The position numbers and the translations under genes are program-made. Source: Rhizobium sp. NXC14 (lineage in GTDB: Bacteria > Pseudomonadota > Alphaproteobacteria > Rhizobiales > Rhizobiaceae). From it: a DNA stretch of 64,000 nt. The notes beneath the pieces were generated by a model. The model was not told the origin of the DNA. It searched no databases and saw nothing but the letters and a program-made list of their open reading frames with translations. How positions within the stretch are numbered: the stretch's first letter is position 1; every line of letters starts with the position of its first letter. Shown here in pieces: positions 6,137 to 33,019 of this stretch. Where the stretch lies: contig NZ_CP021031.1 in NCBI RefSeq assembly GCF_002117485.1, forward strand, positions 466,066 through 530,065. The letters run 5' to 3'.

Positions 6137-7339
6137 ATGTTAGAACAACCCTTGCCGACGCTGCCGATGTGGCGCGTCGATCATATCGAGCCATCACCTG
6201 AGATGCTGGCGCTACGCGCCAAGGGTCCGATCCACCGCGTGCGCTTTCCGTCCGGGCACGAAGGCTGGTGGGTAACGGGCTACGACGAGGCCAAGGCGGT
6301 TCTGTCAGACGCGGCGTTCCGGCCCGCGGGAATGCCGCCCGAGACATTCACCCCTGATTCGGTGATTCTGGGTTCGCCGGGGTGGCTGGTCTCTCACGAG
6401 GGGGGCAAGCATGCCTGGTTGCGCACGATCGTGGCGCCGGCCTTCAGCAACCGCAGGGTGAAGCTGTTGGCGCAGCAGGTCGAGATGGTTGCCGCGCAGT
6501 TGTTCGACACGCTGGCTGCCCAGCCCCAGCCCGCCGACCTGCGGTGCCACCTCTCCTTTCCGCTTCCGGCCATGGTCATCAGCGCGCTGATGGGCGTGCC
6601 CTACGAGGATCACACCTTTTTCGCCGGGCTGTCCGACGAGGTGATGACGCACCAGCATGAGAGCGGTCCACGGAGCGCGTCGAGCGTCGCTTGGGAAGAA
6701 TTGCGAACCTACATTTGCCGCAAGATGCGGGGCAAGCGCGAGGAACCGGGGGACGACCTGCTGACCGATCTGCTCGCAGCGGTCGACCGTGGCAAAGCAA
6801 CCGAGGAAGAGGCGGTTGGCCTGGCGGCCGGCGTGCTGGTGGCGGGGCACGAGAGCACCGTCGCCCAGATCGAATTCGGCCTGCTGGCAATGCTCCGCCA
6901 TCCGCATCAGCGCGAACGCCTGGCCCGCGATCCATCCCTGGCGGACAGAGCGGTGGAGGAAATCCTGCGCATGTATTCGCCGGGCGCGGGCTGGGACGGC
7001 ATCATGCGCTATCCGAGGATCGACGTGACCATCGCGGGCGTGGATATTCCCGCGGAGAGCAAGGTACTGGTGGGTCTGCCGGCGACGTCGTTTGATCCCC
7101 GCCATTTCGAGGACCCGGAAGTCTTCGACATCGGGCGCGACCCAAATCCGCACCTGGCGTTCTCCTACGGGCCGCACAATTGCATCGGCGCGGCGCTGGC
7201 CAGGCTGGAACTCAAGGTGGTGTTCGGTTCGATCTTCCAGCGCTTTCCCGCGCTGCGCCTGGCCGTGGCGCCAGAAGAACTGAAGTTGCGCAAGGAGATC
7301 ATCACCGGCGGGTTCGAGGAGTTCCCGGTGCTCTGGTGA
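6137..7339 (+). CDS. cyp112: Cytochrome P450 CYP112 (gibberellin C-20 oxidase)
   Basis: 400 aa, a typical length for a soluble bacterial P450 without membrane anchor. I-helix oxygen-activation motif AGHEST (about residue 237), K-helix EEILR, and haem-binding [17 protein letters not shown] near residue 347 with the axial cysteine present. CYP112 in rhizobial gibberellin operons oxidises C-20 of GA12 to yield GA9. It is the first intact gene of a seven-gene plus-strand operon, 82 bases after the CYP115 relic. Electrons probably come from the operon ferredoxin domain. Confidence 0.9.
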
Positions 7340-7430
7340 TGCGCGGAAGCCGCCGGGCATTGCAATCGCCGCAGTTTGCCGGCGCGCCTGGCGCGCGCCG
7401 GTCAGATCAGTCAGCCGACAGGTAGCCAAG

Positions 7431-9032
7431 ATGGACGTGCAAGAAACCACGGCAGTATGCAAAGACGCCTTCGCCGAACTGGCGTCGCCCGCGTGCATCC
7501 AAAACCCGTATCCATTCATGCGGTGGTTGCGCGAGCACGATCCGGTGCATCGCTCGGCATCGGGCCTTTTTCTGTTGAGCCGTCACGCCGACATCTACTG
7601 GGCGTTGAAGGCGACGGGCGATGAGTTTCGGGGACCGGCGCCGGGCGAACTGGCGCGCTACTTCCCTCGTGCGGCGACCAGCCTGTCGCTCAATCTGCTG
7701 GCGTCCACGCTAGCCATGAAGGAGCCACCGACGCATACGCGTCTGCGCCGGCTGATATCGCGCGATTTCACCATGCGCCAGATCGACAACCTGAGGCCGA
7801 GCATCGCGCGCATCGTCGCAGCGCGCCTGGACGGCATGGCGCCCGCACTGGAGCGCGGAGAGGCGGTGGACCTGCATCGGGAATTCGCACTGGCCTTGCC
7901 CATGCTTGTCTTCGCCGAACTGTTCGGCATGCCCCAGGAGGACATTTTCGAGCTCTCCGCCGTCATCAGCACTATTTTGGAAGGCCTGAGCCCGCACGCC
8001 AGCGATCTCCAGCTTGCCGCGGCGGACGCGGCCAGTGCCAGGGTGCAGGCCTACTTCGGTGACCTCATACTGCGCAAGCGCACCGATCCCCACCAGGACA
8101 TCGTGTCGACTCTGGTCAGCGCACACAGCGACGACTCCGACACGCTTTCAGACGCCGAGTTGATCAGCATGCTGTGGGGCATGCTGCTGGGCGGCTTCGC
8201 CACCACTGCTGCGACTGTCGATCATGCGGTCCTGGCGATGCTGGCGTATCCCGAACAGCGACACTGGCTGCAGGGTGACGCCACAGGGGTGGAGGCATTC
8301 GTTGAAGAAGTACTGCGCTACGAAGCGCCCGCTATGTTCAGCTCCATTCCGCGTATCGCCCAGCGCGACATCGAACTGCGCGGCGTGGTGATCCCGAAGG
8401 GCGCGGACGTGCGTGTGCTGATGGCGGCCGGCAATCGCGACCCGGACGCCTTCGCTGATCCCGACCGATTCGATCCGGCGCGATTTCACGGCACCAGGCC
8501 TGGCATGTCGAACGACGGGCAGATCATGCTGAGCTTCGGCCACGGCATCCACTTCTGCCTAGGTGCGCAACTGGCCCGTGTGCAACTGGCCGAGAGCCTG
8601 CCGCAAATCCAGGCGCGCTTTCCCACTCTGGCATTGGCCGAACAGCCGACCCGGGAGCCCTCCGCCTTCCTGAGGACGTTCCGAGCGCTACCGGTGCGGC
8701 TGCACGCGCATGGGGCGGCTGAGGTTCACGTGGTGGTCGACCAGGATCTATGCGGAACCACCGGGCAGTGCGTGCTGACGCTGCCGGGCGCCTTTCGCCA
8801 GCGCGAATCGGACGGCGTGGCCGAAGTATCCGTCGCGACGGTCCCGCAGGCGCTGCACGCCGCCGTGCGGCTTGCGGCCAGCCAGTGCCCGGTCGCTGCT
8901 ATTCGGGTGATCGAAAGCGACGCCGGCAATGACCATCGCACCATCTCCGACTCTGCGCCTTCTCCGGAAGAGGCCGCGCGACCTGAAACGAAAGATCTAC
9001 GCAATCCAGGAGGGCATGATGGGACGATTTGA
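7431..9032 (+). CDS. cyp114: CYP114-ferredoxin fusion (ent-kaurenoic acid to GA12-aldehyde)
   Basis: 533 aa, about 100 longer than a stand-alone P450. Residues 1 to about 425 are CYP114: I-helix [19 protein letters not shown], and haem motif [17 protein letters not shown]. From about residue 430 a ferredoxin follows in frame with no stop: [16 protein letters not shown]...[13 protein letters not shown], the CX5C...CP pattern of a [3Fe-4S]-type ferredoxin. In many rhizobia these are separate adjacent genes; CYP114 needs this ferredoxin for the ring contraction. The last ~40 codons are low-complexity and overlap the SDR start by 17 bases. Confidence 0.9.
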
Positions 9033-9861
9033 AGGCAAGGTGGCCGTGGTGACCGGCGCCGGCGCCGGGATCGGTAAGGCATGCGCCCTCGCCATTGCGC
9101 GCGAGGGCGGCAGAGTGGTTGTGGCCGACATTGACGGCTCTGCCGCCATCGTCTGCACCGCGCAGATCGAAGCCGAAGCGGGCCAAGCGCTGGCCGTGGC
9201 CATGGACATCGCCGATGCGCAGGCGGTGGCATCGCTGTTCAAGACGGTGGAGCAGCACTTCGGTGGGGTCGACGTGCTTGTTAACAATGCTAGCGCCATG
9301 CATCTGACCCTACGTGACCGCGCGATCCTCGACCTGGACGTGGCGGTATGGGACGAGACCATGACGACCAATCTGCGCGGCACCCTCCTCTGCTGCCGGC
9401 AGGCCATTCCACAGATGATCGCCCGTGGGGGTGGCGCGATCGTTAACATGTCGTCGTGCCAGGGGCTCAGCGGCGACACGGCACTGACGTCCTACGCCGC
9501 GTCAAAGGCCGCTATGAACATGCTGTCGGCCTCGCTGGCCACGCAGTACGGTCACGCGCAGATCCGCTGCAACGCGGTTGCGCCGGGTCTTGTTATGACC
9601 GAACGACTCCTCGCCAAATTGGACGAGTGCACGCAACGACATCTACGCCGCCACCAGCTCCTGCCGCATGCCGGCCGCCCCGAAGACGTAGCCGCGCTGG
9701 TGACCTTCCTGCTCTCCGACGAGGCTGCGTTCATCACCGGCCAGGTGGTGTGCATCGACGGCGGCATGCTGGCACATGTTCCAACTTACGCCGACGGTGG
9801 CAACAGCGGCGCGGCGCGGCCGGCCTATGACGCCGCTGAAGCGGCTGCGGCGGCGCACTGA
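9016..9861 (+). CDS. SDR oxidoreductase (GA12-aldehyde to GA12)
   Basis: 281 aa. ATG at 9016 (or the adjacent one at 9019) is chosen because it follows CCAGGAGGG; the longer upstream frame only overlaps CYP114-Fd. Rossmann motif [10 protein letters not shown] near the N-terminus, NNAS, catalytic Ser in NMSS, YAASK (Tyr-x-x-x-Lys), and a C-terminal [10 protein letters not shown] typical of classical SDRs. In gibberellin operons the SDR oxidises GA12-aldehyde to GA12. Its TGA overlaps the ATG of CYP117, indicating translational coupling. Confidence 0.9.
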
Positions 9862-11207
9862 TGATGGACGTGCTGCTCAATCCGCTGAACCGCTGGCACC
9901 GGCTGCGGGACGACATCCCGGTCATGCCCGGAGCTTACCCCCTGGTCGGGCATCTTCCCGCTATCGTCTGCGATCTGCCGCGCCTGCTGCGCCGCGCGGA
10001 AAGGACGCTAGGCAGCCACTTCTGGCTGGACTTCGGCCCTGCCGGCCACCTCATGACCTGCCTGGAGCCGGATGCGTTTGCATTGCTCTGGCACAAGGAA
10101 GTGTCCTCGGCGCTGATCGAAGAGATGGCGCCCGACATCCTTGGCGGAACGTTGGTTACTTTGGACGGCAGCGCGCACCGTCAGGCGCGCGATGGGATAA
10201 AGGCGGCGTTTCTGCCCAGGGGTCTGACCGAAGCCCGCATTGGCGAGCTGTTCGAACCCGTCATCCGTGCTCGGGTACAGGCGTGGCGCGATCGCGGTGA
10301 AGTAACTATCCTGCCCGAAACGGGCGACCTGATGCTCAAACTCACCTTCAGTCTTATGGGCATCCCCGCCCGAGACCTGCCGGAATGGCACCGCAAGTAC
10401 CGGCAACTGCTACAGTTGATGATCGCTCCCCCGATCGACCTGCCAGGAATGCCATTGCAGCGCGGCCGCGCCGCCCGCGATTGGATCGACACGAAGTCGC
10501 GCCAGTTCATCCGCGACGCGCGCGCGTGTGCCGCGCGCACAGGGCTGATCAACGACATGGTGGGCGCCTTCGATCACAGCGAAGATGCGCTCTCCGATGA
10601 CGTCTTGGTCGCCAATATCCGCTTGCTGCTGCTTGCCGGTCACGAGACCACCGCCTCAACAATGGCCTGGATGGTGATCGAGCTGGCGAGGCAGCCGGAG
10701 CTGTGGGACGCCTTAGTCGAAGAGGCGCAATGCGTGGGCGCGGTGCCGACCCGGCACGCGGACCTGGCGCAGTGTCCGGTCGCCGAGGCGTTGTTTCGCG
10801 AGACGCTACGGATGCATCCGGCGTCCTCGCTCGTACCGCGTCGCGCGACGCAGGAATTACAACTTGGCCAGCGGCGCATTCCCGCGGGCACCCGTTTAGG
10901 AATCCCGCTGCTGTATTTCTCGACCTCGGCGATGCTGCACGAGGCGCCTGATCAGTTCCGCCTGACACGGTGGCTGGAACGCACGGAGCCTATCCGGCCG
11001 TTGGACATGCTGCAGTTCGGCAGCGGCCCACACGTCTGCATCGGCTATCACCTGGTATGGCTGGAACTTGTGCAGTTCAGCATCGCCTTGGCGCTGACCA
11101 TGCACAAGGCCGGGGCGCGACCACGGTTGCTGAGCGACGCCGAAAAAGGCCGGCGCTACTTCCCGACCGCACAACCGTCCATGAAAATCCGCATCGGGTT
11201 CTCATGA
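9861..11207 (+). CDS. cyp117: Cytochrome P450 CYP117 (ent-kaurene oxidase)
   Basis: 448 aa from the ATG overlapping the SDR stop; a second ATG is three bases in. I-helix LLAGHETTAS, ETLR of the K helix, and haem motif FGSGPHVCIGYHLVWLE near the C-terminus. CYP117 carries out the three-step oxidation of ent-kaurene to ent-kaurenoic acid. The HETT motif and the WLE tail differ from the CYP112/CYP114 style, consistent with a separate P450 family. Confidence 0.88.
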   Translation: MMDVLLNPLNRWHRLRDDIPVMPGAYPLVGHLPAIVCDLPRLLRRAERTLGSHFWLDFGPAGHLMTCLEPDAFALLWHKEVSSALIEEMAPDILGGTLVTLDGSAHRQARDGIKAAFLPRGLTEARIGELFEPVIRARVQAWRDRGEVTILPETGDLMLKLTFSLMGIPARDLPEWHRKYRQLLQLMIAPPIDLPGMPLQRGRAARDWIDTKSRQFIRDARACAARTGLINDMVGAFDHSEDALSDDVLVANIRLLLLAGHETTASTMAWMVIELARQPELWDALVEEAQCVGAVPTRHADLAQCPVAEALFRETLRMHPASSLVPRRATQELQLGQRRIPAGTRLGIPLLYFSTSAMLHEAPDQFRLTRWLERTEPIRPLDMLQFGSGPHVCIGYHLVWLELVQFSIALALTMHKAGARPRLLSDAEKGRRYFPTAQPSMKIRIGFS

Positions 11208-11301
11208 GCTGCCATTGCATGCCCATGTGGCGAGGTAGCGATGCCGGCAACCCGCGGCTGCTCGCTGCTCGCCTTGGCCCTCTCCTGTCAGGTACAAGGA
11301 C

Positions 11302-12309
11302 ATGAACAACATGCAGACCGGTTCTAAGCAACACGACGACCGAACTGGCGTTTCAGGGCTCGGCGGATCGGGCGCGCAGGCGCCCGGCGCAGCCGGCGGG
11401 CTGCTGCCGGAGATCTGGATGCAGTATGGCGCAAAGCGGGTCGAACAGGCGCTGGCGCGTCTTCTATGCGCCGAAGACGACGGTGGGACCGAGTTGATGG
11501 CGGCGATGCGCTACGCCACCTTGCAGGGCGGGAAGCGCACCCGCGCCTTGCTCTGTCTGGCTGCCGGCGCCCTGGCCGACTCGCCGGCGCACATGCTCGA
11601 CGACGTCGGCGCCGCTATAGAGATGATGCACGCCTGTACCCTCGTCCACGACGACCTGCCGGCGATGGACGACGACGTGCTTCGCCGCGGCCTTCCGACC
11701 GTGCACGTGAAATTCGGCGAAGCCACTGCGATCCTGGTCGGCGATGCGCTGCAGGCGCATGCATTCCTCACTCTGGCGAGCCTGGATGCGCCGGCCGACA
11801 ATCGTGTCGCGCTCGTGCGCGAACTGGCTCGGGCCGTGTCCGCGGAGGGTGCCGCAGGCGGACAGGCCATGGATCTGTCGCTGGTCGGAAAGCACGTCGA
11901 GCTGGACAGAATCGTGACGATGCACCGTATGAAGACCGGAGCGCTCGTGCGCGCTTCCGTTCGCATGGGCGCGCTATGCGCCATCGCGGAGGACGCCGCG
12001 CACGCTGCGCTGTACCGTGCGCTCGATCGCTACAGCGCCCGTCTTGGCCTCGCGTTGCAGGTGATCGACGACATTCTCGACGCGACGGCAGACTACGCGA
12101 CGCTGGGCAAGACGCCCGGGAAGGACGCGGCGGCGCAGAAGCCGACCTGCGCGTCGATCATGGGGCTGCAGGCAGCGTGCCAGTTCGTGCCGGATCTGTT
12201 GCGCGACGCCGGGGAGGCCATCGCCCCGCTGGGGCCGCGTGCAGAGGGGTTGGCGCAGATCCTGCAGCGGGCCAACGGGTATCTGGGCAAGCACGCGCCA
12301 TGTACATGA
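11302..12309 (+). CDS. Geranylgeranyl diphosphate synthase
   Basis: 335 aa. Both aspartate-rich motifs of trans-prenyltransferases are present: HDDLPAMDDD (first) and VIDDILD (second), with GGKRTRALL for the substrate diphosphate. The first ~35 residues are Gly/Ala-rich and dispensable-looking. It supplies GGPP to the diterpene cyclases downstream. The 152-base gap to the next gene holds only a tiny frame (12306-12380) with no support. No isopentenyl-diphosphate isomerase gene follows in this operon. Confidence 0.88.
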   Translation: MNNMQTGSKQHDDRTGVSGLGGSGAQAPGAAGGLLPEIWMQYGAKRVEQALARLLCAEDDGGTELMAAMRYATLQGGKRTRALLCLAAGALADSPAHMLDDVGAAIEMMHACTLVHDDLPAMDDDVLRRGLPTVHVKFGEATAILVGDALQAHAFLTLASLDAPADNRVALVRELARAVSAEGAAGGQAMDLSLVGKHVELDRIVTMHRMKTGALVRASVRMGALCAIAEDAAHAALYRALDRYSARLGLALQVIDDILDATADYATLGKTPGKDAAAQKPTCASIMGLQAACQFVPDLLRDAGEAIAPLGPRAEGLAQILQRANGYLGKHAPCT

Positions 12310-12461
12310 GCGCGCCCGTCGACATGGAGAGGCCCCTGTGCTGCTACGACCGCGCCGGCGGCAGCTGGGGCATGCCATGAGTCGTCCGAGTTCGCGGCTA
12401 CGTGCGCGGGGTCTGCCCGATCCTGGTCCTCGTCAACTATCTGCAGTAGGAAACATTCCGC

Positions 12462-14902
<2,441 letters not shown>

Positions 14903-21649: not shown

Positions 21650-22723
21650 TTATTTTCCTAAGATCTGCAACACAGGGCGGGGTGTTCCCCCCGTCTCGGC
21701 TGGCAAAAGTGGATAGGCGACCTCCGGTACCGTTCCGGTCAGCGAATTAAGAAAGGCAACGATGAGGTCGACTTCTTCTTCCTTCAATGCTTCGCCGAGC
21801 TGGGCGGTCCCCATGATGGCGACGGCCTGTTTGAGATCCCAAACCTTACCCGAATGAAAGTAAGGTGCCGTGAGTGCTACGTTGCGCAGCGGAGCTGCGC
21901 GGAAAACATATAAATCGTCGGATTTATTGGTGACGGCAAAACGGCCCTTGTCTTTTTCCGGCAGGACGTCGACGCTGGGCTTTTCAACAATGCCAAAACG
22001 GTAATAGCCATTCCCACCAACATTGGTACCAGCATGGCAGGACGAGCAGCCTTTTTCCATGAAAAGCGTCAGGCCCTGTTTCTGTTTGGAAGTCATTGCG
22101 GCGTCATCGCCATTGAGAAAGGCATCGAAGGGAGCCGGCGTGACAAGTGTCGCCTCAAAGGCTTCGATTGCCTTGGCGAAGTTGTCGAAGGTGACGGGAT
22201 CGGCGTCACCCGCGAAAGCTGCACTGAACCACTCGACATATTGCGGCATCGATTTGAGCGTGGCAATGACTTGACCCGGTGTATTGGCCATTTCGACACT
22301 GGCTTGGACCGGTCCCTTGGCCTGAGCCTTCAGGTCTTCGGCACGACCGTCCCAGAACTGCGCGATGTTGAAGACAGCGTTCAGTGCCGTCGGCGCGTTG
22401 CGCGGTCCCTTCTGCCAACCATGGCCGATCGAGGTTTCAAGATTGTCGTCGCCCCCAGTGGCCAGGTTGTGGCACGAGTTGCATGAGAAAACGCTTGACG
22501 CCGAGACGCGTGGATCGAAGAACAGTGCCTTGCCTAGGACGATTTTCTCCGATGTGATCCGGTTGTTGACGACTGCCGGCGTGGTGGATGGCAAAGCCTT
22601 GAAGGTAGCCAGCGCCATTGCTCTGAGGTCTGCGGGGATCGAATCCGCAGTAAAGGCGGTGGTCGCCATCAAGGCGGCAGCCATCGTAGTGAACAGGATT
22701 TTGATGGGCCGCAAACCGAGCAC
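21650..22723 (-). CDS. Di-haem cytochrome c peroxidase (MauG/CcpA family)
   Basis: Two haem c attachment motifs, CNSCH and CSSCH, in the spacing of bacterial di-haem peroxidases, with the FFDPRVSASS and APYFHSGKVWDL signatures. A signal peptide (ILFTTMAAALMATTAFTA) sends it to the periplasm, where it reduces H2O2. The start is uncertain: GTG at 22723 or TTG at 22714 keeps the signal peptide; the longer open frame upstream overlaps another small gene and is not used. It is intact but isolated among pseudogenes. Confidence 0.85.
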   Translation of the reverse strand: MLGLRPIKILFTTMAAALMATTAFTADSIPADLRAMALATFKALPSTTPAVVNNRITSEKIVLGKALFFDPRVSASSVFSCNSCHNLATGGDDNLETSIGHGWQKGPRNAPTALNAVFNIAQFWDGRAEDLKAQAKGPVQASVEMANTPGQVIATLKSMPQYVEWFSAAFAGDADPVTFDNFAKAIEAFEATLVTPAPFDAFLNGDDAAMTSKQKQGLTLFMEKGCSSCHAGTNVGGNGYYRFGIVEKPSVDVLPEKDKGRFAVTNKSDDLYVFRAAPLRNVALTAPYFHSGKVWDLKQAVAIMGTAQLGEALKEEEVDLIVAFLNSLTGTVPEVAYPLLPAETGGTPRPVLQILGK

Positions 22724-22766
22724 ATCGAGAGCCTCGATCACCACGAGGTTCGAAAGTCCTCGGGCC

Positions 22767-22951
22767 TTACCGGCCGCCCATGCTGATGGAGAAGTAGGCC
22801 AGGCAGCTTGCCTGCGGGCCGTCTTCCTTCCCTGCGAAAAATTGCGGTTCTTTGTCGATGATCGCGGAATAGGCCAGGCCCAGCCGCCTCTGAGGTAATA
22901 GGAAACGCGGATTTCCTGCGCCAGTGAATCCATTTTTTTTTCATGAATCAT
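22767..22951 (-). pseudogene. Frameshifted small protein upstream of the peroxidase
   Basis: One frame starts MIHEKKMDSLAQEIRVSYYL; from about 22870 a different minus frame carries LAYSAIIDKEPQFFAGKEDG and ends YFSISMGGR at a TAA. Together they look like one ~60-aa protein split by a frameshift. No family recognised. Confidence 0.35.
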
Positions 22952-23770
22952 CAGCCCCTCCCGCAGTTGCCGTGACAGCGCCTTTATGGACATCGAGGAT
23001 CTCGCCGGGTTGGAACGAATGTAGAGTTGGGCGTCCGCGCGAGGGAACTGCGGCAAGCTCCTGTGCAGCCTTGGCTCGACTATTCCTGTACGACCTCTTA
23101 ATTCCTCTGCATCTGGATCGTCCTATTCTAGAAGGATCGGATCCAGGCCCCGGCGGAAAGCAATTTTCTGACATTTCGACATTCTCCGCACAATTATCGT
23201 TGCTCTTTTGCGCACCTGCAAATGGCTCCACGCAATATGCCTGCCATAAGCAAAACTCTCTTTTTTGATACAGCATAATCGATCGAACCCGCCGTCTTGC
23301 ATTTCCGATATTGTGATACATCGGACAATGCTACGCGACATGGAACCGTGACAGGCGGACTTGCCAAAAGTGGGCCGCCGTCTATTCAGCAATGATGCCG
23401 ACCTGCGGCCCCCGCTTGGCGGCGTAAACGCTCCGCTCTGGCCACTCGCATTCATCGGGTCCGCGCCATAGAGCACGTGACGGAAACCTGCCCAGGTAAG
23501 AATCTACTGCCGCAGAGCTCGGCGTTCTTCCAACGAGATCGACGCCGACGCCGATCTTACGATCATCCAATGATTATGATCCGTGGGCGGCTCATTGAAC
23601 CGCTTTTGCAGTTCCGCCTGCCGCTGGCGAGCCGGCGGCCGCAAGGGAGGCTGCGCCGCGGCTCAGGTCGAGTTGTGTCGGATCCGACAATTGTCAAGCC
23701 ACGCCCTTGCAGCCTTTGCTCTTCGCCGCGGCCCGGATCGGGCCCGCGATATTCACGGGAAGGAACAAAG
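22952..23770. other. Gap without recognisable genes
   Basis: Only short overlapping frames without motifs. A run of dyad-rich sequence near 23600-23760 precedes the primase relic; no regulatory element could be assigned. Confidence 0.35.
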
Positions 23771-25768: not shown

Positions 25769-27178
25769 CTAGAGGGACGGGCGGCCAAGATAAGCATCGA
25801 ATGCGGCAGCGACAGCGCGAAGCGCAAAGCGACATGCCTGCCGCACACGGACGACACCATTGTCGACATCAACTATCCCGTCCTCAACCAGAATGTCCAA
25901 CTGCTCAGCTGAATTACCCAAATGGATCGGATCAAATCCGCGAGCCGTACAGATTGCTGGTACATCTGCCTCCAAGTAGCACATGAGTTGCTCGATGATT
26001 GCGGCCCGTACGCGATCTTCGATGGTTAGACGATAGCCTCTTGACGTCGCTAAGTGGCCGGACGCAATGGGTCGGTTATAAGAGCTTTGTGTGAGTTCGT
26101 TTTGAACGTAACCCTCGCCGCAACGACTGATGGCCGACGCGCCGAAGCCAATCACAGTTTGGCGCGTTTCGGCGGAGTAACCAAGCGAATTGCGCCGCAG
26201 ACGACCGGTTCTCTGCGCTAGTGCAAGCTCATCATCCGGCAAGGCGAAATGGTCGAGCCCGATTTGCAGATAGCCGGCTGCAACTAAAGTATCGGCCATG
26301 ACTGAGGCCTGCTCAGCGCGCGCGGCTATATCGGGCAGCGCTAATCTGTCAATCAACCGCTGATTTTTTCTATAAGACGGAACGTGGGAATAACCGAAAA
26401 CCGCTAGGCGGTCGGGACGCATCGCAATAGCTAGCAACGCGCTCTGGCGACAGGACTGGACTGTCTGATACGGCAGACCAAACATCAGGTCGAAATTGAT
26501 GCGCCCTACTCCATGCAGGCGCAGGTTTTGGACGGCAGTCATCACTTGCGCCTCGCTCTGAACCCGGTTGATCGCTTTTTGTACGATGGGATCGAAGCTC
26601 TGCACACCGACGCTTGCGCGGTTTACCCCGGCTTTTTCTAAGGCTTCTGCCATATCGGTGGTGAACGTGCGCGGGTCGACCTCGATAGCGATGCTTGCCG
26701 CTTTCTCGAACGCGAAACAGCCGCGCAGGAGTTCCATTAGCGACAGGAAGCCTGCCGGCGGCATGATGGTCGGGGATCCGCCACCGAAGTGCACGTCGCT
26801 CACGGGGATTGCCTGTGGCGTTTGTTCGGCGACCATCCGGATCTCCTCACGCAACATTGCTAAATAATTGATGATCAAAGTATCCAGACGAGTGATGCTC
26901 GTCGGAAAACCACAATACCAGCACATCGAACGGCAGAATGGAATGTGAAGATAGAGCGAAACAGCGTCATCAGTTTCTAGGCTTCGCAGCCATTGCTCAT
27001 AAGCGTGGGCGCCGACTTCTGAAGAAAACTCCTGTATCGTTGGATAGATGGTATACCAAGGCAAATGCGCCCCACTATATTTTTCCGAGACGAAAATCGA
27101 TGACGCTACGCGCAATGACTTTCGTCTCCAGTCCGGCTTGTCATGTCCAGATCTCACGTCTGGTCTTCCTTCGATCAA
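25769..27178 (-). CDS. hemN: Oxygen-independent coproporphyrinogen III oxidase HemN
   Basis: 469 aa radical-SAM enzyme. The cluster-binding motif CRSMCWYC (CxxxCxxC, about residue 82) is intact, preceded by LYLHIPFC and followed by FGGGSPT and VGVQSFD, the HemN signature blocks. It decarboxylates coproporphyrinogen III under low oxygen, supplying haem in nodules. The first ~27 residues are unusual for the family, so the true start may be slightly internal. A TGGCAT-N5-TTGC element about 105 bases upstream suggests sigma-54 control. Confidence 0.88.
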   Translation of the reverse strand: MIEGRPDVRSGHDKPDWRRKSLRVASSIFVSEKYSGAHLPWYTIYPTIQEFSSEVGAHAYEQWLRSLETDDAVSLYLHIPFCRSMCWYCGFPTSITRLDTLIINYLAMLREEIRMVAEQTPQAIPVSDVHFGGGSPTIMPPAGFLSLMELLRGCFAFEKAASIAIEVDPRTFTTDMAEALEKAGVNRASVGVQSFDPIVQKAINRVQSEAQVMTAVQNLRLHGVGRINFDLMFGLPYQTVQSCRQSALLAIAMRPDRLAVFGYSHVPSYRKNQRLIDRLALPDIAARAEQASVMADTLVAAGYLQIGLDHFALPDDELALAQRTGRLRRNSLGYSAETRQTVIGFGASAISRCGEGYVQNELTQSSYNRPIASGHLATSRGYRLTIEDRVRAAIIEQLMCYLEADVPAICTARGFDPIHLGNSAEQLDILVEDGIVDVDNGVVRVRQACRFALRAVAAAFDAYLGRPSL

Positions 27179-28142: not shown

Positions 28143-28158
28143 TGTCGTGCTTGAGACA
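28143..28158 (+). promoter_or_regulatory. NifA upstream activator site of the peptide cluster
   Basis: Exact TGT-N10-ACA (TGTCGTGCTTGAGACA), about 130 bases before the predicted sigma-54 transcription start. Position and sequence fit NifA activation. Confidence 0.65.
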
Positions 28159-28253
28159 CTGTGATGTGCGGTTTGGCACGTCGCGGCGCTCTGGGGGGCA
28201 GCCATTGAATAGCATGCAGAACGGTTCTCTGATGCTCTTCGCTTTTTCTGAAT

Positions 28254-28268
28254 TGGCACGAATCTTGA
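28254..28268 (+). promoter_or_regulatory. Sigma-54 (-24/-12) promoter of the peptide cluster
   Basis: TGGCAC-GAATC-TTGA: perfect -24 box and TTG of the -12 box, with A for the last C, at canonical spacing. The predicted start is near 28280, giving a ~70-base leader to the first peptide. Confidence 0.65.
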
Positions 28269-28347
28269 ACCTCTTTATTGCGCGCCGCCAGGAGCTCCCG
28301 ACGGAACCTTGGCATCTTCTCACTTCAGCTTTGGACCGGAGGCAACA

Positions 28348-28515
28348 ATGAAGAGTGACATGGCAGCCTATCACGTGACTGAATTGACCCCCGAAGAAGC
28401 ATCCGGTACTTCGGGAGGGATGGCATGGGAGATAGCTTTCGGAGTTATTGGGTTGGCAGGCGTTTTAGCCGTAATTATAGCAGAAGAAGTCACCGGCCAG
28501 GGTTGGATCGGCTGA
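28348..28515 (+). CDS. Double-glycine leader peptide 1 (bacteriocin-like)
   Basis: 55 aa, ATG at 28348 behind GGAGGCAACA. Leader MKSDMAAYHVTELTPEEASG then TSGG: leucine and glutamate at the usual positions before a GG cleavage site at residues 23-24. The predicted mature peptide is 31 aa, strongly hydrophobic (GVIGLAGVLAVII) and acidic/Gly-rich at the end, resembling membrane-active class II bacteriocins. It is the first gene after the NifA/sigma-54 motifs and is followed by a paralogous peptide, an HlyD-type protein and a C39 peptidase fragment. Function is inferred from context; it could act in the nodule instead of as a bacteriocin. Confidence 0.75.
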   Translation: MKSDMAAYHVTELTPEEASGTSGGMAWEIAFGVIGLAGVLAVIIAEEVTGQGWIG

Positions 28516-28549
28516 TCTTTTCATGCAGCTCTTGGAAAGGAGAAATCCA

Positions 28550-28714
28550 ATGAAGATCGACACGGCAGCCTATCGGGTAACTGAATTAAATCCTCAAGAA
28601 GCAGCTGAATTCTCTGGAGGTATTTGGCAAATACCATTCGCAATTATCGCGTTTGTCGGCTTCGTGGCTACGAGCATTGGAGCCGCTGCCTTGGACCAAT
28701 ACTTCTTTGATTGA
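28550..28714 (+). CDS. Double-glycine leader peptide 2 (bacteriocin-like)
   Basis: 54 aa, ATG at 28550 with GGAAAGGAGAAAT upstream. The leader (MKIDTAAYRVTELNPQEAAE, FSGG) shares most positions with peptide 1, including YxVTEL and the GG at 23-24, whereas the mature parts differ: 30 residues, hydrophobic (IPFAIIAFVGFVATSIGAAA) and ending DQYFFD. Similar leaders with divergent mature parts suggest two substrates of one exporter, possibly a two-peptide system. Confidence 0.75.
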   Translation: MKIDTAAYRVTELNPQEAAEFSGGIWQIPFAIIAFVGFVATSIGAAALDQYFFD

Positions 28715-28737
28715 TACAAAGGGGCGTTTGGCTCTCG

Positions 28738-29916
28738 ATGCTTCCTAGTGACTACAGACTAGCTTCCCTTTCTGCTGAAACGGCCAGCTGCACCGCAGAA
28801 AGCATACTGTCGCGACTATCAGGTCGATCTTTGGGCATTTATAAGGCGATCTTGCTCTTCGTGGTCGCGGCATTTGCCTCACTGCCACTCGTCACCATAC
28901 CGGTCTCTGTGCAGAGTGCCGGTACTATTCGCCCCATCGTGGAGAAGACGCCCCTGATAGCGCCCGTCTCCGGGCGAATCTCCCGTGTCCTTGCCTTTGA
29001 GAACGATGTCGTTGCTAAGGGGCAGGAAATCATCGCCCTTGACGATGAGGTAATTGAGGAAAAGCTCAGCGCGGTTTTAGCCGACATTCATGCCAAGAGC
29101 GATCTTGCCCATGACTTCCAAACGCTGATCTCCTCCGGCGCAAGGCCCAGTGTCTCAACCCCCCTCCAAACCGAATCCGCGACGGCTGAAAGGGTGCATT
29201 TTCTCAACCTGCTGCGCGAGAACCAATATGCTCGCAGTAACGCCGCGGCGGAACTCGACCGCGCAAAGCGACTTGTCTCGGCTGCTGCGGCGCCTGCGAA
29301 GGCCGTTGAGGAGAAGGCTTTCGCTCTCCAAAACATCGAGGTCCAAGGGGAGATCCTCGCGCGAGGCAAAACCGCCGATTGGAACCAGCAGCTCTTTGAC
29401 GCTACCCTACGCCTAAAGGAACTCACGGCCACCTTGCATCAGCTCGAGAACGAACGGGACCTGCACCGCATCCGTGCCCCAGTATCGGGCGCTCTCGAGC
29501 AGTTCTCCGGCCTCGCGCCCGGCAGCTATGTTCAGATCGGGCAAACCGTTGCCTGGATCTCGCCGAACGACGAACTGGTGGCGGAAATCTACGTCTCCCC
29601 CAACGACATTGGCTTTGTGCAGCCTGGTCAGTCGGTGCGGCTCCAAGTGGATGCCTTTAACTACAATCAATGGGGTGTCATCGTAGCAACGGTGCTCGAT
29701 GTGGCGCAGGACTTCACTCTGCATGACGGGAACCCGGTCTTCAAGGTCCACTGCGCGCTCTCTCGCAGTGATCTCGCGCTAAAGAGCGGGGCCATCGGTC
29801 ACCTGAAGAAAGGCATGACCGTGCGGGCCCGCTTTCTGTTGGCCGATCGCACTCTCCTGCAACTGCTCTACGATCAGGCAGACGATTGGCTCAATCCGAT
29901 GCTGGCAGGGCGCTAA
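28738..29916 (+). CDS. HlyD-family membrane fusion protein (peptide exporter adaptor)
   Basis: 392 aa from the ATG at 28738; a TTG at 28711 would add nine residues. One membrane helix (ILLFVVAAFASLPLVTIPV, about residues 38-56), then a biotinyl-lipoyl-like half (APVSGRISRVLAFENDVVAK), a long alpha-helical hairpin, the second lipoyl half (RIRAPVSGALEQFSGLAPGS) and beta-barrel. It would bridge an inner-membrane ABC transporter to an outer-membrane channel. It follows the two leader peptides by 23 bases and precedes the C39 peptidase fragment by 27. Confidence 0.85.
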   Translation: MLPSDYRLASLSAETASCTAESILSRLSGRSLGIYKAILLFVVAAFASLPLVTIPVSVQSAGTIRPIVEKTPLIAPVSGRISRVLAFENDVVAKGQEIIALDDEVIEEKLSAVLADIHAKSDLAHDFQTLISSGARPSVSTPLQTESATAERVHFLNLLRENQYARSNAAAELDRAKRLVSAAAAPAKAVEEKAFALQNIEVQGEILARGKTADWNQQLFDATLRLKELTATLHQLENERDLHRIRAPVSGALEQFSGLAPGSYVQIGQTVAWISPNDELVAEIYVSPNDIGFVQPGQSVRLQVDAFNYNQWGVIVATVLDVAQDFTLHDGNPVFKVHCALSRSDLALKSGAIGHLKKGMTVRARFLLADRTLLQLLYDQADDWLNPMLAGR

Positions 29917-29943
29917 TTTTGTCCCAACAGCCAGCGAGCTTCC

Positions 29944-30240
29944 ATGCCGAGTAAGGCCGTTAAGTTCAAGCAGCGCGACATCACAGATTGCGGCGCCGCC
30001 AGCCTCGCTTCTGTCGCAGCTTTCTACGGCTACAAGTTGCCATTGGCGCGCATTCGCCAGTATGCGTCGACCGACCGCTCCGGTACGAGTGTGCTGGGGC
30101 TCACGGAAGCGGCGCAGAAGCTGGGCTTCGTCGCTAAGGGCGTCAAAGGTGGCTTCGACAGCCTGTACAAGATCCCTAAGCCCGCTATTGCGCACGTCGT
30201 CGTCAGCCCCGAGGAATTCATGCCGGAGGGTTTCCAATGA
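29944..30240 (+). pseudogene. Truncated C39 peptidase domain of a peptide ABC transporter
   Basis: 98 aa. VKFKQRDITDCGAASLASVA carries the catalytic cysteine of the C39 double-glycine peptidase, continuing RQYASTDRSGTSVLGLTEAA and the AQKLGF block to KPAIAHVVV. There the family normally reaches its catalytic HYVV histidine; here the sequence switches to SPEEFMPEGFQ and stops. The catalytic His/Asp, membrane helices and ATPase are all missing. The last ~11 residues probably come from another gene that once preceded the HAD gene, whose ATG overlaps this stop. Confidence 0.75.
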
Positions 30241-31389: not shown

Positions 31390-31935
31390 GTGCAGCTTCG
31401 AAAGGGCGCCACCCTTGAAATGGTCCGCCTCACCTGCCCGGACAGCGCCCAGGCGCTCAAGATCGCCGAAAGCTTCGGGACCGCTGTCATCGACAGCGAC
31501 GGGATCCGCGATCTCCACGAGCGACTGATCATCGAGACGGCCGATGCCTTGAGCGAAGGCCTTGGCGATCGCGCCATGCAGATCCATCTGCAGCGCATCG
31601 TCGGCGCCTATGTCGGATCTGCCCACGGTGCGGGCCAGTTTTACAGCAAGGCCGTGACGCAGGCGCGGGACGCCACCGCGAAGGCTTCGAACGACGCCCG
31701 CGATGAGGACCTCGACGGTCCCGTCGGCTATGACAGCGCCTCCCATCGCAAGCGGGAGTTCGCAGCCGACATGGGCATCCAGGCCCACGCCCTGCGCATG
31801 GCGGCCGAAGGTGCGGTCGCCGCCTACAAGCAAATCGTCGGCGAAGTCTGGAAGTCCTTCGATCGCGCGGTCGAAAATCCTGGCCAATTGGTCGATCGCA
31901 AGGCTGCCGCAGCCCAGATGTCAGCCTTCGACTGA
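31390..31935 (+). CDS. Conserved plasmid backbone protein (copy 2, N-terminus damaged)
   Basis: 181 aa if the GTG at 31390 is used. From VQLRKGAT onward it matches the 195-aa protein at 716 almost residue for residue. The first ~15 codons of copy 1 correspond to 31350-31389 here, which has a TAG and no ATG, so either the gene starts at the GTG or it is a 5'-truncated copy created at the module breakpoint. Confidence 0.6.
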   Translation: MQLRKGATLEMVRLTCPDSAQALKIAESFGTAVIDSDGIRDLHERLIIETADALSEGLGDRAMQIHLQRIVGAYVGSAHGAGQFYSKAVTQARDATAKASNDARDEDLDGPVGYDSASHRKREFAADMGIQAHALRMAAEGAVAAYKQIVGEVWKSFDRAVENPGQLVDRKAAAAQMSAFD

Positions 31936-31997: not shown

Positions 31998-32224
31998 TCC
32001 ATGCCGGCGTTCGCCGAAGAAGAGGCGAAGGAAGACTTTGGTTAAGCCGACGCGGCCCGTCTTGTGCGTCGGACCTGCAGGAGCCGCCATCGTCCCGCAA
32101 TGGCTTCGCCGTCCTCCACTTTGTTGCGGCCGTTCCGGTGCGGGCCACCGGCTCTAGGGCTCCTGCCTTTGGCCTCCGCGACGGGCCGCGATTGGCGCGG
32201 CTCCGATTGAGTGGAGACGAAAAA

Positions 32225-33019
32225 ATGACCAGGAAGACAGAGAGCCAGCGAGTGGATATCTATTCCCGCATCACCGATCGGATCATCGAGGAGCTCGCAG
32301 GCGGCGTGCGACCCTGGATGAAACCATGGAGCGCCGCAAACACGGACGGGCGGATCACCCGCCCGCTTCGCCATAACGACCAACCCTATCTCGGCATGAA
32401 CGTACTTCTGCTCTGGTCCGAGCAGATGTCGCGCGGGTTTGGCTCGTCGACGTGGATGACCTTCAAGCAAGCGATCGAACTCGGCGCCACTGTCCGAAAG
32501 GGCGAGACCGGATCGACGGTTGTCTTTGCGAGCCGCTTCACCAAGTCGGAAGTCCACGGAAAGGGTGGCGAGGTCGACCGGGAAATCCCGTTCCTGAAGG
32601 CCTATTCCGTCTTCAACGTCGAGCAGATCGATGGTCTGCCTGACGATTACGATCACCGGCCGAGAGCTGTGCTCGATACGGTCGAGCGCATAGAGAACGC
32701 CGATCGATTTTTCCGCAATACGGGCGCGGTTATCCGCCATGGCGGCAGCAAGGCCTATTATTCGCCGGTCATGGACTACATCCAGATGCCGCCCTTCGAG
32801 AGTTTCAGGGATGCCGCTGCGTACGCAGCGACCCTCAGCCATGAAGCGACACATTGGACGGCGGCAGAGCACCGGGTCGGCCGGGATCTGTCACGCTATG
32901 CCAAGGATCGCAGCGAACGTGCCCGCGAGGAGCTGATCGCCGAGCTCGGCAGCTGCTTTCTCTGCGCAGATCTCGGTATCGTGCCGGAGCTCGAACCCCG
33001 GCCCGATCATGCCTCCTAA
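32225..33019 (+). CDS. ardC: ArdC-like antirestriction protein, prematurely stopped (copy 2)
   Basis: 264 aa from ATG 32225. It closely matches the copy at 1604-2527, with DUF1738 region and HEATH metal motif intact. A TAA follows RPDHAS where copy 1 has a tyrosine codon, and one codon is lost; in-frame sequence equivalent to the last ~42 residues (SWLKVLADDKRAIFQAA...) continues to 33148. The metallopeptidase core survives, so partial function is possible, but the gene is likely decaying while copy 1 remains intact. Confidence 0.7.
   Translation: MTRKTESQRVDIYSRITDRIIEELAGGVRPWMKPWSAANTDGRITRPLRHNDQPYLGMNVLLLWSEQMSRGFGSSTWMTFKQAIELGATVRKGETGSTVVFASRFTKSEVHGKGGEVDREIPFLKAYSVFNVEQIDGLPDDYDHRPRAVLDTVERIENADRFFRNTGAVIRHGGSKAYYSPVMDYIQMPPFESFRDAAAYAATLSHEATHWTAAEHRVGRDLSRYAKDRSERAREELIAELGSCFLCADLGIVPELEPRPDHAS

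Follow-up and report, generated by a model that had tools for sequence, protein, structure and literature searches.

The 64,000-nucleotide stretch of Rhizobium sp. NXC14 analysed here (contig NZ_CP021031.1, positions 466,066 to 530,065 of the forward strand; hereafter the window) contains at 28143–30240 a NifA-type box, a sigma-54 promoter, two peptides with a double-glycine (GG) leader, an HlyD-type adaptor and a C39 exporter that is cut short, in this order (Table 1). The explanation considered best, with a probability of about 60% for the whole of it, is that this locus is a copy, broken in its exporter, of a cassette which is carried by legume-nodule bacteria and used for NifA/sigma-54-driven peptide export. 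The preliminary description of this DNA had named an exact TGT-N10-ACA box with a canonically spaced -24/-12 element, two GG-leader peptides of 54–55 amino acids, an HlyD-type adaptor and a C39 fragment with its catalytic Cys. All of these were recovered on renewed reading, scripted scanning and domain search, and the last can now be refined as a truncated gene corresponding to residues 1–87/88 of 719.

Table 1. Positions in the window of the elements and genes of the peptide export locus.
Feature	Position	Strand	Evidence
NifA-type upstream box TGTCGTGCTTGAGACA (TGT-N10-ACA)	28143..28158	+	sequence reading and script scan
Sigma-54 type -24/-12 element TTGGCACGAATCTTGAA	28253..28269	+	sequence reading and script scan
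GG-leader peptide 1, 55 amino acids (24-residue leader, 31-residue mature part)	28348..28515	+	
GG-leader peptide 2, 54 amino acids (24-residue leader, 30-residue mature part)	28550..28714	+	
HlyD-family adaptor, frame open from TTG 28711, in-frame ATG 28738	28711..29916	+	Pfam HlyD_3, 5e-17
C39 peptidase/ABC exporter, truncated, about residues 1–87 of 719 homologous	29944..30240	+	Peptidase_C39, 5e-18, profile positions 6–81 of 133

First of all, the cassette is conserved in relatives. An HlyD search was made in one genome per GTDB species and the best 79 of 315 matches were kept as loci; 35 of them (L004–L038) are rhizobial, with an identity of 53–93%, and the others, at 31–38%, come from Bacteroidota and other groups. 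In all 35 rhizobial loci, among which L033–L035 are copies within one strain, HlyD is followed by a full-length frame of a C39 exporter of the ATP-binding cassette (ABC) type, 713–748 amino acids long. The exporter is also complete, according to the annotation, in L092, L093 and L146, and in Microvirga lotononidis (L145), which also has HlyD and, at L145 5707, a leader peptide, it is covered over 717 residues. In the intact relative P0001 (Rhizobium mesoamericanum, 719 amino acids), the C39, transmembrane and ATPase domains were all recognised by Pfam. When plasmid records were searched, 75 HlyD proteins were found at an identity of at least 60%, again 75 with a Bradyrhizobium query, and the next plasmid HlyD among the matches listed after these 75 has an identity of 34%. 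The sources stated among the matches listed are all legumes or nodules (several records state none), and the host genera named there are Phaseolus, Glycine, Robinia, Oxytropis, Argyrolobium, Medicago, Melilotus, Trifolium, Vavilovia and Vachellia. Rhizobium etli CFN42 has an intact cassette on p42d, with RHE_RS34940 (41-residue peptide), RHE_RS31080 (HlyD) and RHE_RS31085 (exporter). The arrangement for which the preliminary description had proposed a search, namely the leader beside HlyD/C39 genes on rhizobial symbiotic plasmids, does exist, with full C39-ABC genes on symbiotic replicons.

Moreover, the cassette goes together with nodulation genes. Among 148 Rhizobium genomes, HlyD occurs in 30 and NodA in 65; all 30 HlyD carriers have nodA and none of the 83 genomes without nodA has HlyD, these counts being uncorrected for shared ancestry. 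A full nifH is present in 22 of the 30 HlyD-positive genomes, and the other eight, all nodA-positive, are draft assemblies in 60 to 1890 contigs. The genomes behind the representative loci were examined for 21 of the 35 loci: NodA was matched at an E value of 3e-82 or better in 20 of them, and nifH above its cut-off in 19. The exception for NodA is Bradyrhizobium aeschynomenes, with a best E value of 5.6e-6 and nifH present; photosynthetic Bradyrhizobium strains that nodulate without nod genes are known. In evenly drawn samples, HlyD was met in 5 of 394 genomes for the family and in 4 of 397 for the order. The locus of the window itself lies on a replicon of 530 kilobases (kb), which is taken for a symbiotic plasmid because it also carries nodA, nifH in two full copies and two genes for nifA (both above the cut-off).

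In the promoter of the window, the TGGC of the sigma-54 element starts 111 base pairs (bp) past the box, and the element carries A in place of C at -12. Since the nifH promoters of Mesorhizobium loti and R. etli also carry this A, according to the accessible part of PMC3538637, it is no objection to a sigma-54 element. The window of 64 kb has a single occurrence of the strict form TGGCACG-N4-TTGNW, and under the motifs scanned it contains no box and element pair but this one. In 200 dinucleotide shuffles, pairing with TGT-N10-ACA arose by chance in none for the strict element and in one for a looser element. One nifH copy on the same replicon has a similar box 107 bp ahead of its element. At the 20 representative loci, 26 of 39 peptide genes have a sigma-54 element in the 450 nucleotides before them, and 19 of 39 have a box and element pair spaced by 55–160 bp; for 25,765 random 450-mers, drawn from these loci after masking of the peptide neighbourhoods, the figures are 1.2% for the element and 0.26% for the pair. 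Chance pairing of the motifs was rejected on the window shuffles and on this masked control. The best element begins 92–99 nucleotides ahead of the ATG in 21 of the 32 peptide-gene rows examined, and TTGTCG and TGGCA are invariant over 17 hand-chosen promoters from several genera. L004 (R. mesoamericanum) has the sigma-54 element with a box that ends in ACG. Read together, these motifs suggest that the cassette is under the control of NifA and sigma-54.

As for the peptides, 31 of the 36 found at the loci were aligned, and the leader residues M1, E12, E17 and G24 are invariant across them; leader peptides are found in five rhizobial genera. A profile of the 31 peptides retrieved 77 proteins among 5.8 billion, two of which are those of the window, and all members with an organism in the listed name belong to Rhizobium, Sinorhizobium/Ensifer, Mesorhizobium or Bradyrhizobium. 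A lack of leader conservation in homologues, which the preliminary description had listed among the results that would refute it, was not seen: the leader is conserved, in a set that was itself gathered by leader similarity. For 85 distinct peptides (89 minus two duplicates after trimming and minus P0023 and P0077, which failed the pattern), the mean pairwise identity is 68% for leaders, a value inflated because of that way of gathering, 33% for the mature parts (cores) and 27% for shuffled cores. In ten pairs picked by hand for equal length, whose counts were pooled by hand, the ratio of nonsynonymous to synonymous differences is 18:31 for leaders against about 81:38 for cores (p = 0.0003), and the cores also differ from HlyD (224.5:253.5 in 7 pairs, p = 4e-5). 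Pooled in this way, the counts show a conserved leader and a mature part with faster change. The cores are strongly hydrophobic in 71 of 85 peptides, 78 of 85 show a Phe or Trp among the first four core residues, and two or more Cys occur in 4 of 85. Several loci have two or more peptide genes. In a Pfam search, peptides 1 and 2 of the window matched no family.

Two further observations concern the peptide genes of relatives. GG-peptide genes are scattered over kilobases at L023 (1820–4205), L024 (2989–5832) and L030 (982 to about 12 kb); part of them have their own element, and for others none is recognisable. In addition, Cys/Pro/His-rich mature parts stand behind the common leader at L025 719–868, L029 7398–7556, L030 7241–7414 and on its minus strand, and L038 7271–7465, in Bradyrhizobium and one Sinorhizobium, which suggests that cargo of very different kinds can use this platform.

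In the strain studied here, the exporter is broken. Compared with P0001, residues 1–87/88 are kept with an identity of 92–93%; past residue 87 or so, unrelated sequence follows and then a gene of a HAD-family hydrolase. The catalytic triad of C39 peptidases is usually Cys, His and Asp; the fragment of the window retains the Cys, and the stretch with His and Asp is missing in the alignment, as are the transmembrane and ATPase parts in their entirety. A search of the genome gave no second exporter copy, and its two other C39-like proteins have no catalytic DC motif in the alignment, so a replacement exporter elsewhere in the genome was rejected. The strain very probably lacks a dedicated machine that could process and export the peptides: secretion is probably dead here because the exporter is cut short and no substitute was found, and the peptides probably remain unprocessed because everything after exporter residue 87 is lost. 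The earlier proposal that the peptide pair is made and exported under nitrogen fixation is consequently divided. It is supported for the family by the leader, the exporter and the NifA/sigma-54 elements at many peptide genes, and it is not supported for this strain, in which a secreted product is unlikely.

Decay is also seen elsewhere in the family. The first peptide gene of L004 has lost its middle (about 7769–7830), and L037 (Rhizobium altiplani), whose HlyD is identical to that of L004, likewise has the second peptide only. On a Bradyrhizobium septentrionale plasmid, the exporter gene is interrupted by an IS630-family element (L144 9179–10706). Apart from such decay, in Bradyrhizobium centrolobii a partial second exporter copy (residues 544–718, 71% identity) lies downstream of the full one (L024 10887–11411).

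It is quite probable that the locus of this strain is a plain remnant, in which the promoter and the peptide genes survive as ineffective relics. This is compatible with the explanation preferred here, since that concerns the family. An exporter that ends at residue 87 of 719, no substitute for it and the decay in L004/L037 and L144 all speak for a remnant, whereas both peptide genes, HlyD and the promoter are intact. The HlyD of the window has also gathered no excess of amino-acid changes over its sister: derived nonsynonymous to synonymous changes are 8:4 in the window and 12:7 in L004, with 14 sites ambiguous and no asymmetry, and relaxed selection on the window HlyD was rejected on these counts.

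With the elements, their order and their conservation as found, the working of intact cassettes is most likely as follows. In the low-oxygen nodule of relatives, NifA would bind the TGTCG-type box and, together with sigma-54, would bring about the transcription of one or more GG-leader peptide genes, of HlyD and of the C39-ABC exporter. Judging from the protein families, the C39 domain would cleave behind Gly-Gly, and a peptide of some 30 residues, mostly hydrophobic, would leave the cell through the exporter, HlyD and an outer-membrane channel. For the freed peptide we lean to a membrane-active, bacteriocin-like role against rival rhizobia in or near the nodule, to which we give somewhat less than even odds. 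In Rhizobium sp. NXC14, the two intact peptides would stay unprocessed in the cell.

A number of results weigh against this picture of NifA-driven export of a bacteriocin-like peptide. On the side of the promoter, the other nifH copy on the replicon has an element with no exact box; the element as scanned is missing at 13 of 39 peptide genes, many being off by one or two bases; the upstream scan of L024 2989 gave nothing close to a sigma-54 element; and 20 of 39 peptide genes are without the box and element pair. On the side of the peptides, leaders and HlyD do not differ significantly in the codon comparison (p = 0.23), the L028/L032 pair shows no core change and the L020/L031 pair has a low core ratio of 0.19, and the Cys/Pro/His-rich cargo of L025, L029, L030 and L038 is hydrophilic. 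Peptide 1 of the window has no NCBIfam match, and peptide 2 reaches 15 bits against the cut-off of 21.5 of TIGR03949, the model of the class IIb bacteriocins (lactobin A/cerein 7B). Furthermore, no immunity-like gene is conserved beside the cassette in at least 4 of 21 loci (open reading frames of at least 40 amino acids, E value of 1e-5 or below, about 6 kb on each side), a comparison that a fast-changing small gene would escape. Within this scope, a conserved immunity or modifying gene was rejected as a candidate; the further families of open reading frames overlap HlyD, the exporter, their partial copies or the promoter stretch.

The results on the promoter bear on the possibility that it depends on sigma-54 and answers to an activator other than NifA, the cassette then not being tied to nitrogen fixation. 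The regulation is predicted from sequence, a lone TGT-N10-ACA box is frequent, with 16 in the window and about 11 in each shuffle, and the missing exact pairs would fit such an activator. It is nevertheless very improbable, as box and element are kept in the 17 chosen promoters from several genera, the box stands at a nifH-like distance, nifA lies on the same replicon, and within Rhizobium the cassette is confined to nodA-positive genomes.

The results on the peptides bear on a different role, that of a signal or effector which would be set free inside the nodule, be perceived by the host and act on the plant, or on the population of bacteroids. Such a role would resemble that of RaxAB-type export in the host recognition of Xanthomonas, where RaxX is presumably the exported peptide. 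A host-directed role is favoured by the absence of a conserved immunity gene at the 21 loci, by the hydrophilic Cys/Pro-rich cargo of some relatives and by the link to the nodule, to which the tie to nodA-positive genomes and the nif-type promoter both belong. There is also a precedent for a C39 exporter in host recognition: the accessible part of PMC4216712 predicts for the RaxST-RaxA-RaxB system of Xanthomonas oryzae a C39 ABC exporter with a membrane-fusion partner and a leader peptide, in a plant-associated bacterium. The cassette differs from that system in its mostly hydrophobic cargo, and at the 21 loci no sulfotransferase or other modifying gene is conserved beside it. With 71 of 85 cores looking membrane-spanning and with the partial match to a bacteriocin model, the plant-directed role is judged rather unlikely.

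What favours the membrane-active peptide against rival bacteria is the combination of hydrophobic, often paired and fast-changing cores with a partial class IIb match. The cassette resembles class IIb bacteriocins in its GG leader, its hydrophobic core and its often paired peptides; TIGR03949 was matched by 11 of 31 peptides at E values up to 0.1, and a peptide of S. americanum is annotated as lactobin A/cerein 7B family. It differs from them in that the window peptides fall below the cut-off, in that no immunity gene was found in the comparison of 21 loci, and in that some relatives have Cys/Pro-rich cargo. An RTX-like protein encoded downstream in S. americanum did not emerge as shared in that neighbourhood comparison.

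The export machine itself is of a familiar kind. The best solved match of P0001 is 4ry2, an 'ABC-type bacteriocin transporter' (7e-143, residues 4–714), followed by ComA, and its best NCBIfam model is TIGR01193 (bacteriocin_ABC), whose score of 514.4 bits is slightly below the cut-off of 523.85. Compared with such C39 ABC exporters (PCAT1 and ComA type), the cassette of the window has about 87 exporter residues and a nif-type promoter. The NHLP bacteriocin export system was rejected, since P0001 scores 445.3 bits against a cut-off of 853.3 for TIGR03796. The adaptor of the window matches Pfam HlyD_3 above its cut-off, and TIGR01843 below (123.4 against 208.65).

The preliminary description knew of no described rhizobial system with this combination, and none came to light in the open-access literature, where a search by title and start of abstract gave no description of a NifA-type promoter together with a GG peptide, HlyD and C39. 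Dirix 2004 and Michiels 2001 reportedly screened Gram-negatives in silico for GG-leader peptides beside C39 transporters, and these loci might be included there. In its promoter architecture, that is, box, -24/-12 element and A at -12, the cassette resembles the NifA-RpoN regulons of M. loti R7A and R. etli, as far as the accessible part of PMC3538637 goes; the 16 M. loti promoters in Table 1 of that paper comprise none for an HlyD/C39/peptide operon. For R. etli, the NifA-RpoN list comprises 120 genes (Salazar 2010, as cited in the accessible part of PMC9611204). As far as the open-access literature shows, C39/GG-peptide export is the known kind, and the nif-type control and the spread as a symbiosis-linked family are new, while the earlier GG screens and the R. 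etli NifA regulon may mention the genes.

A wider and more doubtful idea is that at least five rhizobial genera possess a peptide arsenal induced with nitrogen fixation, in which a fixed, NifA-driven export platform would release exchangeable, fast-diversifying short peptides in nodules, as a counterpart of the plant nodule peptides, and so shape strain success or host response. If so, bacterial peptides co-induced with nitrogenase and released in the nodule would add a new layer to the legume symbiosis. Being conserved, the leader offers a simple handle for finding further cargo peptides, and R. etli CFN42, with its intact peptide, HlyD and exporter genes, makes direct tests of expression, secretion, competition or host effect possible.

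Finally, some neighbouring genes of the window may be mentioned. There are two ArdC-type antirestriction genes, at 1412–2527 (371 amino acids) and, in a shorter form, at 32138–33019 (293 amino acids), and the open reading frames that precede them (716–1303 and 31390–31935) are alike by eye; from these two similar pairs, a block of the conjugation region seems to have been duplicated directly after the broken cassette. A gene row at 6137–14902 presumably resembles the rhizobial gibberellin operon: judged by the translations, it would comprise three P450-like genes, one dehydrogenase gene, one for a prenyl synthase and two for cyclases (Pfam was run on the last two only). On the minus strand lie a di-haem cytochrome c peroxidase (21650–23056) and a radical SAM protein (25769–27178), the latter of which we take to be HemN-like.

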